Source: Rheinheimera pacifica (GTDB lineage: Bacteria > Pseudomonadota > Gammaproteobacteria > Enterobacterales > Alteromonadaceae). Taken from it: DNA of 64,000 nucleotides. Made by a program: the position numbers and the translations under genes. This document shows positions 58,280 through 64,000 of the stretch, piece after piece. Position 1 is the stretch's first letter. Each line of letters begins with the position of its first letter. The stretch is from contig NZ_FNXF01000002.1 of assembly GCF_900108485.1 (NCBI RefSeq), positions 1-64,000 on the forward strand, read 5' to 3'. Below the pieces are notes generated by a model. That model had not been told where the DNA came from and ran no database searches. It was given only the letters and a program-made list of their open reading frames with translations.

Positions 58280-59422
58280 CTAACGAGCAACAGGCGTTAA
58301 CTTCAGCAGGCGCCCCTTGCTATCCCCGCGTTCATCCTCGAGTACCCAGATAGCTCCATCCGGGCTCTCGGTAACCTTGCGAATACGCGCGCCCATGTTA
58401 TAACGCGCTACCTCGGTGGCACTCTCGCCATCGAACTTAATGCGCACTATGCCCTGAGAGGAGAGGCCAGCCGCTAAGGCATCGCCCCGCCAGCCGGCAA
58501 AAAGGTTGCCACGGTACACTATAATATCGGCCGGTGAAATCACCGGTGTCCAGCTGATTGCCGGTGCAGTGAACTCAGGCCGAGTGTCGTGGTTGGGGAT
58601 GTCCCGGCCATCGTAATGTATGCCATCAGATACTTCCGGGTAGCCATAATTGGCGCCCCGTTTAATTAAATTAAGTTCGTCACCGCCAGCTGGGCCCATC
58701 TCAAGGACCCATAATTTGCCAGTCAGATCGAACGTCATCCCCAGCGGGTTGCGATGACCCAGCGACCAGATCTGTGAGTAAATTGCTTCGTTGCCGACAA
58801 AGGGATCTTCATCACTGTAATTAACAAAGGGGTTGTCTTTGGGCTCCGAACCATCGTCATGTAAGCGCAGTATCTTGCCCATAGATGATTGCATATCCTG
58901 GGCAGGCGTGAACTTTTGCCGGTCACCCGAGGAAATCCACAGATAGCCGCTGTTATCAAACAGCAGGCGGTGGCCATAGTGGCCATAGCCCAGCACTTTG
59001 GGGTACTGTCGCCAGATCACCTGCAGGTTTTTCAGCTGAGGACTGCTTCCGCCCTCAACCATAGTGCCGCGGGCCACAGCTGCACCGCGCACTCCGCCCT
59101 CACCTGACTCAGCGTAGCTGATGTAGATAAGTTTGTTATTGGCGAAGTCAGGATGCAACGCCACATCCCCCAAGCCACCCTGGCCGCCATAATCCACGTT
59201 CGGTAACCCACCAACTGGTTGAGATTTCTCTCCCTGCTGCGTAACAATGGTCAGTCGCCCTTTCTTTTCAGTGACCAGTATGCGCCCATCTGGCAGAAAG
59301 GCCATCGACCATGGCTCGTCAAACCGGGTGATTTCCTCAGTCTGAAACGGCAGCTTATCCTGCGCCGATGCCAAGAACGTGATAACTAACCCTAGAAGAA
59401 GCGCATACAGCTGCCGAGTCAT
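58280..59422 (-). CDS. PQQ-dependent sugar dehydrogenase (Asd/YliI type)
   Basis: A 380-residue periplasmic six-bladed propeller. A signal peptide (LYALLLGLVITFLASA) is followed by the aldose sugar dehydrogenase pattern: WSMAFLPDGRILVTEKKGRL, DYGGQGGLGDVALHPDF, YGHYGHRLLFD, SLGHRNPLGMTFDL, GPAGGDELNLI and the ending AIWVLEDE. Members oxidise aldoses using PQQ and pass electrons to the chain. GGAG lies seven bases before the ATG. It is a second propeller next to that at 7825-9147, with no PQQ synthesis genes in view. Confidence 0.92.
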   Translation of the reverse strand: MTRQLYALLLGLVITFLASAQDKLPFQTEEITRFDEPWSMAFLPDGRILVTEKKGRLTIVTQQGEKSQPVGGLPNVDYGGQGGLGDVALHPDFANNKLIYISYAESGEGGVRGAAVARGTMVEGGSSPQLKNLQVIWRQYPKVLGYGHYGHRLLFDNSGYLWISSGDRQKFTPAQDMQSSMGKILRLHDDGSEPKDNPFVNYSDEDPFVGNEAIYSQIWSLGHRNPLGMTFDLTGKLWVLEMGPAGGDELNLIKRGANYGYPEVSDGIHYDGRDIPNHDTRPEFTAPAISWTPVISPADIIVYRGNLFAGWRGDALAAGLSSQGIVRIKFDGESATEVARYNMGARIRKVTESPDGAIWVLEDERGDSKGRLLKLTPVAR

Positions 59423-59492: not shown

Positions 59493-59806
59493 CTACGCCA
59501 TGATAGTTAGTGTCAGCCATTTGCTTCTGATGAAGTTAAGAGGGCAGAGACCGCCGCACTGCCCTACACCCTGTATACCCAGACCGCTATCGAGTGGCGT
59601 ATTTAGTTTTAGTAAAACCCGTTGCTGGCGCGGCTGCAGACCGATGCTTTTTAGCTCTTGCTGGCTACGCGCGGCATTGTCTAATCTGCTGTGTTGATCT
59701 GGCGCATCCAGATAGCAGGCTTGTTGTAGCTGCCGCTGGCATTAAGCCGCTGTTGCAGTTGCTGCAAATAGCGCAGTGTTTGTGCACTCAGCGGCGGGTA
59801 GCTCAT
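59493..59806 (-). pseudogene. Frameshifted fourth reading frame of the condensin operon
   Basis: The ATG at 59806 shares one base with the stop of the kleisin-like gene (TGATG), so it should be translated with it. In this frame the protein reads MSYPPLSAQTLRYLQQLQQR and stops at 59681 after 41 residues. A second frame, open from about 59741 to a stop at 59493, continues with similar composition (LQQACYLDAPDQHSRLDNAA, later RSQQELKSIGLQPRQQR). One single-base frameshift near 59741 would join them into a protein of about 100 residues. I do not recognise it. It could be a decayed small subunit or a sequencing error. Confidence 0.4.
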
Positions 59807-61047
59807 CAGGCCGCCTGCAGGCTCAGGCTGATATCGCGGATAAGCAGCAGGCTGTTAACGGCGCTGGCTGGCACTTCGTCGCGCTTAATGGCAAACATAT
59901 GCTTTTCATCTACCGGCAGCGCCTGATACTCGGCAATGATCTGATACAGCCAGATTTCGCTGTCCCAGTTTAGCTGGTGCTCGGCCAGATAATCCAGCGC
60001 ACTTAAAGGTCCGGCTTTATCAATCACCCGCAGGTAGAAGTTTTCCACGTCAGTTTTCAGCGCTTGCTGGCGGGCGGCAATTTCTTCATCTTCCATTACT
60101 GCGGCAAAACTGGCGCTTTGCTGATCCGGCAGGTTTATAACGGCGGTTCTGGGTAACGCCCGCACCAGTTCGGCCAGGATCTGGCGTTCGCTGGCTTTAT
60201 CCAGCGCAATAGCCGCTTGTGGCTGTATTGCTGCAGCCTGATTAAATAACACCGGCACGTCAGAGCGGTTAGGATAATCGGCTGGCTGATACTTCGGGTG
60301 CTGGCGCAAAAATGCCGCCATATTGGTGATCAGCATGGAACGCGACTGCTGCTGGCGAAAACGCGCTAACAGCTCGACTAAGCGTTTTTGCACTTCCAAC
60401 AGGCTGCTGTGGTGCGAGCTAAGCTGGTTTTGCAGCTGGCTGACCAGTAATTTGCGCAGGTGGTTATTGCCTTCTGACAGCTCAATTAACTCGTTAAAAT
60501 CCAGTAACACCAGGCCATCGAGCAAACGGCGTAATTGCTTTTGCGCCCGCTCGTTCTCGCGGATTTTATCATCCAGGCTGGCAACAAAACCAAAATCGCT
60601 GTTCAGCCGGTGCCATAAGCTGTCTATCGCCTCTTCAAACTGGCCGCTTAAGTCGTGTACATGCTCGGTTAACCGTTGCAGTTGCAGCTCGGCCACACTG
60701 TAATCGCCTTTGTACTGTGCATCGCGGTACGCCTGCACCCGGTTACGAATTTGCTCCAGCTTTTCTGCCACATCGGCATTAATCTGGCGGCGGTTTTCGT
60801 CGGCCACCATACTGGCAATCAGCTCGCTAACCAGTGGCCTTAGCGCCAGCGGTTGCTGCTCATCCGGCCGCCACAAAATACGCGCCGCAATCAGCTTTTT
60901 TAGCGCAGTTTCGCTAAAGGCGGCTTCATCGATAAAACCGTCCAGATAACCCTGCATCAGTGCTTTATGGTGCTTGCCCAGCAGCGCCAGCCGTTCGGCG
61001 CCGACGCTAAACAGGTTAGAGGCAGAACCCGTGTCCAGCGGCGCCAT
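59806..61047 (-). CDS. Kleisin-like subunit of a MukBEF/Mks/Wadjet-type condensin (MukF/MksF/JetA role)
   Basis: A 413-residue soluble helical protein. The N-terminal 110 residues look like a winged-helix region (FIDEAAFSETALKKLIAARIL, LRPLVSELIASMVADENRR) that would bind the SMC head. The middle is a helical bundle (LWHRLNSDFGFVASLDDKI, LLDFNELIELSEGNNHLRK), and the C-terminus (IDKAGPLSALDYLAEHQLNWDSEIWLYQII) resembles the second head-binding end. The start overlaps the previous stop (TAATG, shared base 61047). Such proteins are often misnamed phosphoenolpyruvate carboxylase. It is third in the operon, and the fourth frame follows at once. Confidence 0.65.
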   Translation of the reverse strand: MAPLDTGSASNLFSVGAERLALLGKHHKALMQGYLDGFIDEAAFSETALKKLIAARILWRPDEQQPLALRPLVSELIASMVADENRRQINADVAEKLEQIRNRVQAYRDAQYKGDYSVAELQLQRLTEHVHDLSGQFEEAIDSLWHRLNSDFGFVASLDDKIRENERAQKQLRRLLDGLVLLDFNELIELSEGNNHLRKLLVSQLQNQLSSHHSSLLEVQKRLVELLARFRQQQSRSMLITNMAAFLRQHPKYQPADYPNRSDVPVLFNQAAAIQPQAAIALDKASERQILAELVRALPRTAVINLPDQQSASFAAVMEDEEIAARQQALKTDVENFYLRVIDKAGPLSALDYLAEHQLNWDSEIWLYQIIAEYQALPVDEKHMFAIKRDEVPASAVNSLLLIRDISLSLQAA

Positions 61048-61667
61048 TACAATATCGCCTGCTGGGTTGGGGTGTCATCTACTGGCAGATGCTCTTCATC
61101 ACGGATAAACCGAATAACATCAATTAAATAGTCAATTTTGCCGGTAACAATATAGTACTGCCGGTCGCTGTGCGGTTGCAGCAGGTAGCCGTGCTCTTTT
61201 AAGCGGCGGAAAATCAGTTTTACCTGGTTGTCCAGCGCATCACTCTGGCTGTTAAAAAAGCGGTCGCTGGCCAGTTGGTTTAAGCGTTGGCGCAGGCTTT
61301 GGTTGTCCTCGGTGCGCAGAACAAACTCCTGCAGCTTAATGGTATCGCCTGCCGTTAAGGCGCTGTCGCGGCCCAGGGTTTCCTGCACCAGTTGCAGCCA
61401 TTCCAGCAGTGGCAACAGCGATTGTACGGTTAAGGCAAACTGGCCGCTTAATTGCTCGCGCGCGGCTTTATTCAGTTCGTGATACGCCAGAAAATACACG
61501 CTGTTATCTTCATTGCTAACTAAACGACGGTTTAGCGGGCGCAGATAGTGGTTAATATCCTGCTGCGTTTGTTCCAGGCTTAAATGGCGGAATGCATCTT
61601 CGTCGCTAACCTGGCAGATAAAATCACCGGCCAGCAGCCGTTCCAGTAAAGGACCATGTTGTAACAT
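61047..61667 (-). CDS. MukE/MksE/JetB-like condensin subunit (DUF4194-like)
   Basis: A 206-residue soluble protein with two winged-helix-type regions: GPLLERLLAGDFICQVSDEDAFRHL at the N-terminus and LDNQVKLIFRRLKEHGYL with DRQYYIVTGKIDYLIDVIRFI at the C-terminus. The middle is helical. Size (MukE 234, MksE about 220), position between the SMC and the kleisin and the DUF4194-like pattern point to the E subunit that binds the kleisin and DNA. A perfect AGGAGG ribosome site lies inside the end of the SMC gene, and the start overlaps its stop as TAATG. Confidence 0.68.
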   Translation of the reverse strand: MLQHGPLLERLLAGDFICQVSDEDAFRHLSLEQTQQDINHYLRPLNRRLVSNEDNSVYFLAYHELNKAAREQLSGQFALTVQSLLPLLEWLQLVQETLGRDSALTAGDTIKLQEFVLRTEDNQSLRQRLNQLASDRFFNSQSDALDNQVKLIFRRLKEHGYLLQPHSDRQYYIVTGKIDYLIDVIRFIRDEEHLPVDDTPTQQAIL

Positions 61668-64000
61668 TAGCTGGCCTCCTGTTGCCGCTGTGCCAGCCGC
61701 TCAGCTAACCGGCTGGTTTTAGGTTGAATACGTTTTAACTGGCGTTTGCTCGGATCTTGCTGGCTGGGTTCGATCAGATAGCGGTGTTTAAACAGCATCA
61801 GCACGTCAGACTCAGGGTTAGGAAAGGCACCGACAATAATAATGTTATTGGCGCTGCAGGCCGCAAACAGTTTTTCTACGTTGTGATAGGCCAGGGTGCC
61901 AATTTCATCTATCGGCCAGTGAATCGCCACTTTGGCCTCGCCACGCAATAAGCGGGTAAAGGCCAGCAGGTACTTACATAAAATAAGATAAGCCATACCG
62001 TGGCTGGATGACTCCAGCAACTGGCGGTCATTTTTAATCACCAGCTCAGAGCCGCCTTCGCTCAAATGCAGCTCAAGCCGCAGTAAGGATTCAATAGTAT
62101 ATTGCTCATCAGCGCGCAGCAGTTCTACCACATCGGCCAGCGCATTGAGGTACTGCTCGGAAGGCAATGCTTTGCCCGAGGCGCCCCAGTCGTCGTACAG
62201 TTTGGCAAAGTGTTTCAGCGGCTGCCAAAAGCCCAGCTCGTCAATGGTAGATAAAATACGCACTTCGGATTTGCTGATGCCTTCGAGCACCAGATCGTCG
62301 GCCACCGCTTCGCTTAAACGGCGGCTTTGCAGGGCAATACGGCGGTTAATGTCGCTGAATACGGTAAAAAACTTTTTCAGATCGCCGCCAATGTTTTCGC
62401 CCATTTCCAGCAACTGCTGTTGCTGATCCTGTAAGATCCGCAGTAAGTCGGCCAGAATAGGCAATTGCTGGCGTTTACCGGCGTAATCGGGCAGTTTGCG
62501 TTTTTCGTGCTCCAGCCGGTCAAGAAACTCACTACCGGCATCTTTACTCAGCGTGGTCTCAAACTGTTCCAGTTGTAATTTTAACTGCTGATCCAGCTTG
62601 CTGCGCTGCTCCAGCGCTTCATTGCTGCGGGCTAAACGCTCCACTAAATCGGCTGATGCGGCAAGCGCGGCCGGTGTGACCTCTGCCAGATGCAGCTCTG
62701 CCAGTTTTAACAGCAACGGTTTTAACTGGCTTAGCCAGACATCGGCCTGCTGCATTTTTTCCTGCCACTGGCGTTTTTGTTCGTCCAGCCGTTTCTGGCT
62801 GGCAGCAAAATCGGCTTTTAACTGGCCAAGCAGTTGGCTGAGCTCACGTTGCTGTTGTTTTAATTCAGTTTCTTTGCTCAGTAACTGTGGCCGCAGCTGC
62901 TGCCAGTCCAGTTGCATAAAGCGTTGCCACTGCGTCAGTTCGTCCTGGCGGCTTTCGGTGGCTTTAATATCGGTTTTCAGTTGCTCCTGGCGCTGCTTCA
63001 GCTCGACCAGCCGTTTCGGATCTATGCCCTTGGCCGATAACTCTTCGTTAAATGCTTGCTGCAACTCACTAAGCTGTTGTTTATTGTCGTCGCGCTTGCG
63101 CTCCAGCTGGCGTTCCAGCTCGTCCAGTTGTTCATCAAATACCTGCAGTTCGGCCTGCCAGTCGGCTTTCAGCTCAATTTTTTGTGTTTGATGATCGGCT
63201 TTAAGCGCCTGTAAATCCTGTTGTTGCTGCTGTTGCAGCTTTTCCAGTTGTTGCTGCTGCTCTGCCAGTTCGGCACGCGCACTGGCCTGGCGTTGTTTAA
63301 CCAGCTCGCGCTGCGCAGCTTCCAGCCGGTTACGGGCGTCGCGGGCGTAGTCAATATTCTGCTCAGCCTGGGTATATTGCCACTGCGCCTGCTCCAGTTG
63401 AGCCTGCACCAGCTCGGCTTGCTGATGGCTGTCTTTCAGCGTTTTTTCGGCGGCAGCCTTAGCAGCCGTTGCCTGCTCCAGTTGTTGCTCTGCACTGTGT
63501 ATGCGGTGGCGGATGGCGGCTTCATCCTGAGCGTAGTCGGGCGTGTCTATTGCCGCCAGCTCCAGTTGCAGGCCATAGAGGCTGTCGCCCAGTTCTGCCA
63601 AATGCGGCTGTAAGTCCTGCCGTTCTAATAAACGCTCGTCCAGCACCTTACCTAATTTTTGCTCCCAGCCGCTGTAATGCAGGCGCAGATAATGGCGTAA
63701 ACTGCCCTGCTCCGGCGTAAGCTGGCGGTGTAGTTGCTGCAGTTGTTGTTCAGCCAGATGCCGCGCTTTACTGGCGTGTTCCAGTTGCTTATCGGCCTGT
63801 TCGCGCTGTTGCCGGGCTTGCTGATATTGCTGCTGCAGTTGCTGTACCTGCCGCGCCTGCTGCTGGGCCTGCTGCTGGGTTTGCTCCAGCCGCAGCTCAG
63901 CACTGCGCAATTCATCATGTTCGGTGTCGGTTAACGCCGAATGGCTCAGCTGGCTTTGCAGTACCGCAATACCGTTACTGCACTGGGTTAATTGTTCGGC
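61667..64000 (-). CDS. SMC-like ATPase, C-terminal part (MukB/MksB/JetC type), 5' end outside window
   Basis: The frame is open from the right window edge to 61667, so only the last 777 residues of a larger ATPase are seen. A start codon near 63910 is an internal codon, not the true start. From the edge to about residue 480 the sequence is a long glutamine-rich coiled coil (QQQARQVQQLQQQYQQARQQ and similar). Then come a head part with the ABC signature-like SSSHGMAYLILCKYLLAFT near 61979-62016 and Walker B WPIDEIGTLAYHN near 61890-61921. It would form the ring that extrudes or entraps DNA. It heads the visible operon. Confidence 0.85.
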   Translation of the reverse strand, partial: AEQLTQCSNGIAVLQSQLSHSALTDTEHDELRSAELRLEQTQQQAQQQARQVQQLQQQYQQARQQREQADKQLEHASKARHLAEQQLQQLHRQLTPEQGSLRHYLRLHYSGWEQKLGKVLDERLLERQDLQPHLAELGDSLYGLQLELAAIDTPDYAQDEAAIRHRIHSAEQQLEQATAAKAAAEKTLKDSHQQAELVQAQLEQAQWQYTQAEQNIDYARDARNRLEAAQRELVKQRQASARAELAEQQQQLEKLQQQQQQDLQALKADHQTQKIELKADWQAELQVFDEQLDELERQLERKRDDNKQQLSELQQAFNEELSAKGIDPKRLVELKQRQEQLKTDIKATESRQDELTQWQRFMQLDWQQLRPQLLSKETELKQQQRELSQLLGQLKADFAASQKRLDEQKRQWQEKMQQADVWLSQLKPLLLKLAELHLAEVTPAALAASADLVERLARSNEALEQRSKLDQQLKLQLEQFETTLSKDAGSEFLDRLEHEKRKLPDYAGKRQQLPILADLLRILQDQQQQLLEMGENIGGDLKKFFTVFSDINRRIALQSRRLSEAVADDLVLEGISKSEVRILSTIDELGFWQPLKHFAKLYDDWGASGKALPSEQYLNALADVVELLRADEQYTIESLLRLELHLSEGGSELVIKNDRQLLESSSHGMAYLILCKYLLAFTRLLRGEAKVAIHWPIDEIGTLAYHNVEKLFAACSANNIIIVGAFPNPESDVLMLFKHRYLIEPSQQDPSKRQLKRIQPKTSRLAERLAQRQQEAS

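Follow-up and report, generated by a model that had tools for sequence, protein, structure and literature searches.

An Mks/Wadjet-like SMC-E-F operon of Rheinheimera pacifica with an intact core and a decayed nuclease gene

The stretch of DNA analysed here, referred to as the window, comprises positions 1-64000 of a 445-kb contig (NZ_FNXF01000002.1) from the 4.46-Mb genome of Rheinheimera pacifica, and near its end it holds three minus-strand genes, termed SMC, E and F, followed by the wreck of a fourth gene, D. SMC-E-F probably forms the core, made up of SMC, KITE and kleisin, of a Wadjet/MukBEF-like (Mks) complex and acts as a second condensin on the chromosome. In relatives the same core genes, in the same order, are found with D as a fourth, TOPRIM nuclease-like gene, and D has been lost repeatedly elsewhere. 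Loss of the nuclease has been proposed as a route between plasmid-killing Wadjet machines and the chromosomal MukBEF and MksBEF condensins (PMC10586767). Here, this step in their interconversion can be compared between close relatives, the separate breakage or loss of D in several of them providing a natural experiment on the way from a defence system to a chromosome-folding machine.

The decayed D gene begins on the stop codon of F (TGATG) at 59806. Comparison with intact D genes using blastn recovers two pieces, nucleotides 1-78 of D at 59729-59806 (97% over 78 nt to locus L005) and nucleotides 217-377 at 59578-59738 (90% over 161 nt to locus L004), with 148 bp deleted between them and everything past about nucleotide 377 of 870 gone. 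A D profile match at 59565-59747 contains a stop codon. An earlier interpretation made from the letters alone, the sequence-only reading, had seen no JetD/MksG gene downstream of the operon. This is correct for an intact gene, of which there is none in the window nor in the list of open reading frames to 75 kb, read by eye, but it missed the decayed D. The same list argues against a nuclease gene lying beyond SMC, a possibility that was rejected. The DUF7281 profile, which describes D in relatives, gave no match in the window's own genome, in a search that had no working positive control and with a profile that misses diverged D.

To place this wreck among relatives, we used a genome set and a set of named loci, which partly represent the same species and are not additive as independent samples. 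In the genus, F is present in 28 of 31 genomes, in one copy each, and every locus was examined with about 1.5 kb past F, which suffices for D to be seen. Of the 28, 20 have an intact D, and in eight it is broken or absent: the window, L149, L152, L153 and L155 (both ends kept in the latter two), L163, L173 and L174. The five with detectable remains, the window and four others, retain different pieces; at most 7 residues are left in L163 and nothing recognisable in L173 and L174. A JetD_C search matches 20 of the 31 genomes, exactly those with intact D. Among close relatives whose F proteins are 97-98% identical to that of the window, R. hassiensis (L004) has an intact D, and R. pacifica BIGb0367 (L006) and R. 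oceanensis (L022) have a broken one, as does the window.

Across the family, 71 of 147 genomes carry F; 18 have D in an open frame and 2 have remnants of it, adjoining F in all 20 cases. Sorted by F identity to the window, D occurs in 6/10 loci at ≥84%, in 7/16 at 46-59%, in 3/43 at 32-37% (clade C) and in both loci that are more distant than clade C. No D remnants were found in the D-less loci among 40 distant family loci. At the level of the class, F is found in 7 of 369 genomes, and the four of these outside the family all have a DUF7281 gene beside it; DUF7281 was also found in eight more genomes that gave no match to F. Because of this distribution across genus, family and class, the four-gene form looks ancestral and the loss of D recurrent. 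On a tree of E and F from the 28 genomes the state of D changes at least 5 times, 3 of them forced by well-supported branches, and on a FastTree tree of SMC, E and F from 71 loci (leaving out 3 whose SMC gene is cut) it does so at least 12 times, 10 of them forced, with long-branch warnings applying. Such counts cannot separate gain from loss; remnants and outgroups can. L098, in which F is followed by a DUF7281 gene, and its close relative L099, without one, lie inside the otherwise D-less clade C, and D may have been kept or regained in L098. L175 (G543:C1:23834-25066), a genus member with intact D, has a far-diverged core on a very long branch, possibly acquired by transfer.

Selection on the operon was assessed from ratios of nonsynonymous to synonymous divergence (dN/dS), given as simple Nei-Gojobori estimates. 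In 18 hand-chosen close pairs the ratios are 0.008-0.078 for SMC, E and F and 0.115-0.308 for D (7 pairs with D in both). For E and F together, at a synonymous divergence (dS) below 0.6, the medians are 0.042 where both members carry D (7 pairs), 0.027 where one lacks it (12 pairs) and 0.026 where both do (6 pairs). In a group entirely without D (L073, L074, L076 and L077; 3 pairs, frames taken from stop to stop), dN/dS is 0.045-0.069 for SMC, 0.007-0.027 for E and 0.084-0.111 for F, and two D pairs in the same analysis gave 0.093 and 0.209; most clade C pairs were saturated and left unused. The core is thus under strong purifying selection with or without D. The nuclease is fast-changing, most of all towards its N-terminus, and the core is not: over 26 D-bearing loci F has a median identity of 0.87, and D one of 0.45 in its N-terminal third, 0.63 in the middle third and 0.59 in the C-terminal third. 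Very different forms of the D N-terminal domain sit on near-identical cores (L004-L036; for example, L004 and L034 with identities of 0.87 for F, 0.39 for the N-terminal and 0.86 for the C-terminal part of D), as if the domain were exchanged by recombination. Purifying selection on the core would point, indirectly, to a role in chromosome organisation or segregation.

The subunit roles proposed by the sequence-only reading fared unequally. SMC matches PF12128 nearly end to end, carries a Walker A motif and is a coiled-coil SMC ATPase of the MukB-like families; E scores as MksE above the curated cut-off of PF21980 and is a KITE-type protein. F is a weaker call, named by no profile library (Pfam, PADLOC and NCBIfam gave nothing convincing). 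The PADLOC Jet profiles match SMC and E weakly and partially (JetC models, which carry a DUF3584 description, for SMC; JetB1 at 3.5e-5 for E) and F not at all. The modelled F protein consists of a helical N-terminal domain, a long helical middle, an unstructured linker and a C-terminal domain, and the top four Foldseek rows for the model are MukF or MukBEF entries with sub-threshold E values of 0.019-0.037. Together with its position in the operon, this suggests that F may be a kleisin. Searched against the PDB, the SMC sequence had no match and the F profile a single chance match (E 0.18). The D profile returned designed repeat proteins on top, with SPO11 at 0.037 and MksG at 0.076, and therefore folds were compared instead: the fold of D from relatives (about 289 amino acids, DUF7281, TOPRIM nuclease-like) matches MksG and JetD.

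The three open reading frames and the one-base TAATG overlaps at both junctions, as described by the sequence-only reading, were borne out (Table 1), with SMC cut by the window edge. Of 33 related loci, all have TAATG or TGATG at the E-F junction and 32 have one of the two at the SMC-E junction. Operons are ordinarily packed with one-base overlaps of this kind, among other arrangements, and the fixed stoichiometry that had been predicted from them is no consequence. The order SMC-E-F is kept in 33/33 related loci (SMC cut by the contig end in 3) and in 40/40 further family loci. The reversal with respect to mksFEBG (PMC10123090) noted at the outset is therefore real; a kleisin-KITE-SMC-nuclease order was not found, and an assembly artefact or chance gene order is ruled out by SMC-E-F(-D) in 73/73 loci.

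Table 1. Genes of the operon and the nuclease remnant (window positions unless stated otherwise)
Feature	Position	Strand	Description
SMC ATPase gene, 3' part	61667..64000	-	777 of 1221 aa inside the window; PF12128 1e-138 on the window part
Full SMC gene	contig 61667-65332	-	1221 aa; PF12128 823 bits for the full protein; cut by the window edge, 5' part beyond
E, KITE-type subunit, MksE family	61047..61667	-	206 aa; PF21980 (MksE) 31.9 bits, cut-off 27
F, kleisin-like subunit	59806..61047	-	413 aa; assigned from position, conservation and modelled layout, without family match
D remnant, TOPRIM nuclease-like gene	59578..59806	-	blastn against intact D genes

Since ScpA is found in 13/13 genus genomes (the window's and 12 congeners) and MukB (PF04310) in 0/13 by a search that does find MukB in E. 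coli, SMC-E-F is most likely a second condensin in the genus, the search for other condensins having covered ScpA and MukB. In such a complex F, with E attached, would bridge the SMC heads, and the complex would extrude DNA loops using ATP. Following the Wadjet model, extruding loops from small circular DNA would activate D, where there is one, to cut it; with D lost, as here, the loop extruder would keep working on the chromosome, by analogy with MksBEF in Pseudomonas aeruginosa. A more far-reaching version, which we put forward tentatively and hold to be possible rather than probable, is that the core is a housekeeping chromosome folder even alongside the nuclease, which would be a fast-changing plug-in that makes a plasmid killer out of a condensin and that sister species keep or drop independently of one another. 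If true, conversion from Wadjet to condensin would be a recurring step, cheap for the core, and not a rare ancient event.

The operon also occurs outside the family. In E. coli it is present in 11 of 5426 genomes, always on the chromosome. The five loci viewed (L194, L196-L199) show a four-gene operon in SMC-E-F-D order beside yghD/gspM in a defence-like island. Two of the five are intact as annotated; 2022H047 has a split E, RM14723 has a split D, and EC12 has both a short D and an IS911 element separating SMC from E. Core genes and D are thus both damaged there, unlike in Rheinheimera. A plasmid-borne system was rejected, as none of 72,556 plasmid records gave a match. Among 50,697 phage records one, the 209-kb Dolichospermum cyanophage Dfl-JY45 (PP438435.1, 86907-93262; L195, 2684-9039), carries all four genes, overlapping: SMC (653 bits to PF12128), MksE, an F that is 31% identical and a DUF7281 gene. 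By its gene content this is a phage with its own predicted Wadjet-like complex.

Several observations weigh against a core retained as a chromosomal condensin. The kleisin fold of F is no more than suggestive; two D-bearing pairs with L171 are outliers for E and F, with dN/dS of 0.158 and 0.196; and the low dN/dS of genus pairs partly reflects time before the loss of D, because the losses are undated. The system is dispensable in the 3 of 31 genus genomes that lack F, and the E. coli operon, rare and with core damage too, looks like a plain accessory defence decaying anywhere. The last two points, and the recent look of the remnants, would fit a decaying defence module in which D went first and the core is to follow. 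We regard this as quite unlikely: no D-less locus was seen with a damaged core (E and F are intact in 28/28 genus genomes, and SMC is at full length in 30/30 loci with sufficient contig and open in 40/40 family loci), dN/dS is still low in the group that shares the absence of D, and D is the only gene seen broken in Rheinheimera and its kin. All seven lesions fall in D, with p ~4e-6 if they are independent and spread over SMC, E and D by length (F, the query, was excluded for that reason).

Alternatively, the core might still act in defence after losing D, by blocking, silencing or mis-segregating small circular DNA uncut, or by borrowing a nuclease encoded elsewhere. The resemblance of D-bearing relatives to Wadjet speaks for this, as do defence-like genes beside D in several of them. 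Eight proteins beside D in six relatives comprise AbiD, HsdR, two TIR-Roc-LRR proteins, a nucleotidyltransferase pair, an aconitase and one unmatched protein, of which all but the last two are defence- or toxin-like. All four subunits are, however, required in Wadjet (PMC10586767), no D was found away from F in 147 family genomes (A2 profile), and there is no JetD_C match in any of the eight D-less genus genomes, that of the window included, a search that other nuclease families would escape. We judge this alternative unlikely. The sequence-only reading, having seen no JetD/MksG, had suggested a possible distinct branch, which could be one that never had a nuclease. A distinct lineage is consistent with how little the PADLOC profiles see of it, and the missing intact nuclease gene and the nearly D-less clade C are what such a branch would show. 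Its relatives, however, have D in the same operon: D adjoins F in all four F-bearing class genomes outside the family, in the E. coli loci viewed and in the phage. The remnants in the window and four further genomes of the genus make a branch without nuclease highly improbable and refute it for the window itself.

Three known systems are closest to this operon. Like MksBEFG/JetABCD (Wadjet type I, for example in Corynebacterium glutamicum; PMC10123090), D-bearing relatives combine SMC, KITE, kleisin-like and TOPRIM nuclease-like proteins in one operon, with E in the MksE family and the fold likeness of D. They differ in the order SMC-E-F-D versus F-E-B-G, in a D of about 289 amino acids with DUF7281 and in their weak, partial matches to PADLOC Jet profiles; an intact nuclease is present in relatives and lacking in the window's genome. 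MksBEF of P. aeruginosa, a MukBEF-like condensin of three subunits and no nuclease, exists beside Smc-ScpAB (PMC7485682, PMC10586767), similar to the core with a D remnant and ScpA here. The likeness is one of description, gene order differs (mksFEBG reported for Pseudomonas, PMC10123090), and nuclease loss is recent and repeated here. Several Wadjet-group members lack MksG, MukBEF of Escherichia coli being one without MksG/JetD that acts on the chromosome (PMC7617805); unlike it, the present system is a probable second condensin with another gene order, in genomes without PF04310. A JetC3 profile run on 369 genomes for the gene order of Wadjet type III gave weak coiled-coil matches in 167. 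The kind of system is known, MksBEFG/Wadjet; to it the present analysis adds an order SMC-E-F-D, a DUF3584/DUF7281 branch and the recent, repeated loss of the nuclease with remnants and an unaffected core. In the PMC literature we found no paper on DUF7281 and no report of recurrent nuclease loss within a genus; subscription papers and supplements were outside its scope, and the branch may be in Data S1, the Wadjet-group operon list, of PMC7617805. The PADLOC profiles used hardly detect the branch, which is present in E. coli too. Experiments on these close relatives could tell apart what a single core does in defence and on the chromosome.

Further D-like genes were seen in two genomes. G146, a member of the genus, encodes a second strong JetD_C protein away from the operon (G146:C1:134412-134930, L220; 1.3e-46, 432-aa frame), probably part of a canonical Wadjet, and G412, a distant gammaproteobacterium, has a second, broken DUF7281 gene (G412:C1:1604478-1604884; L119, L120) and also an intact copy of the operon. 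The 3' side of the operon, which the D breakpoints face, is a variable site, often with genes of AbiD, HsdR, TIR-Roc-LRR or nucleotidyltransferase type (L008, L009, L023, L029, L035). In the window, the D remnant is adjoined by a gene of the PF07995 glucose/sorbosone dehydrogenase family (58280-59422, minus strand), and similar genes lie 3' of the operon, at variable distance, in some relatives too.
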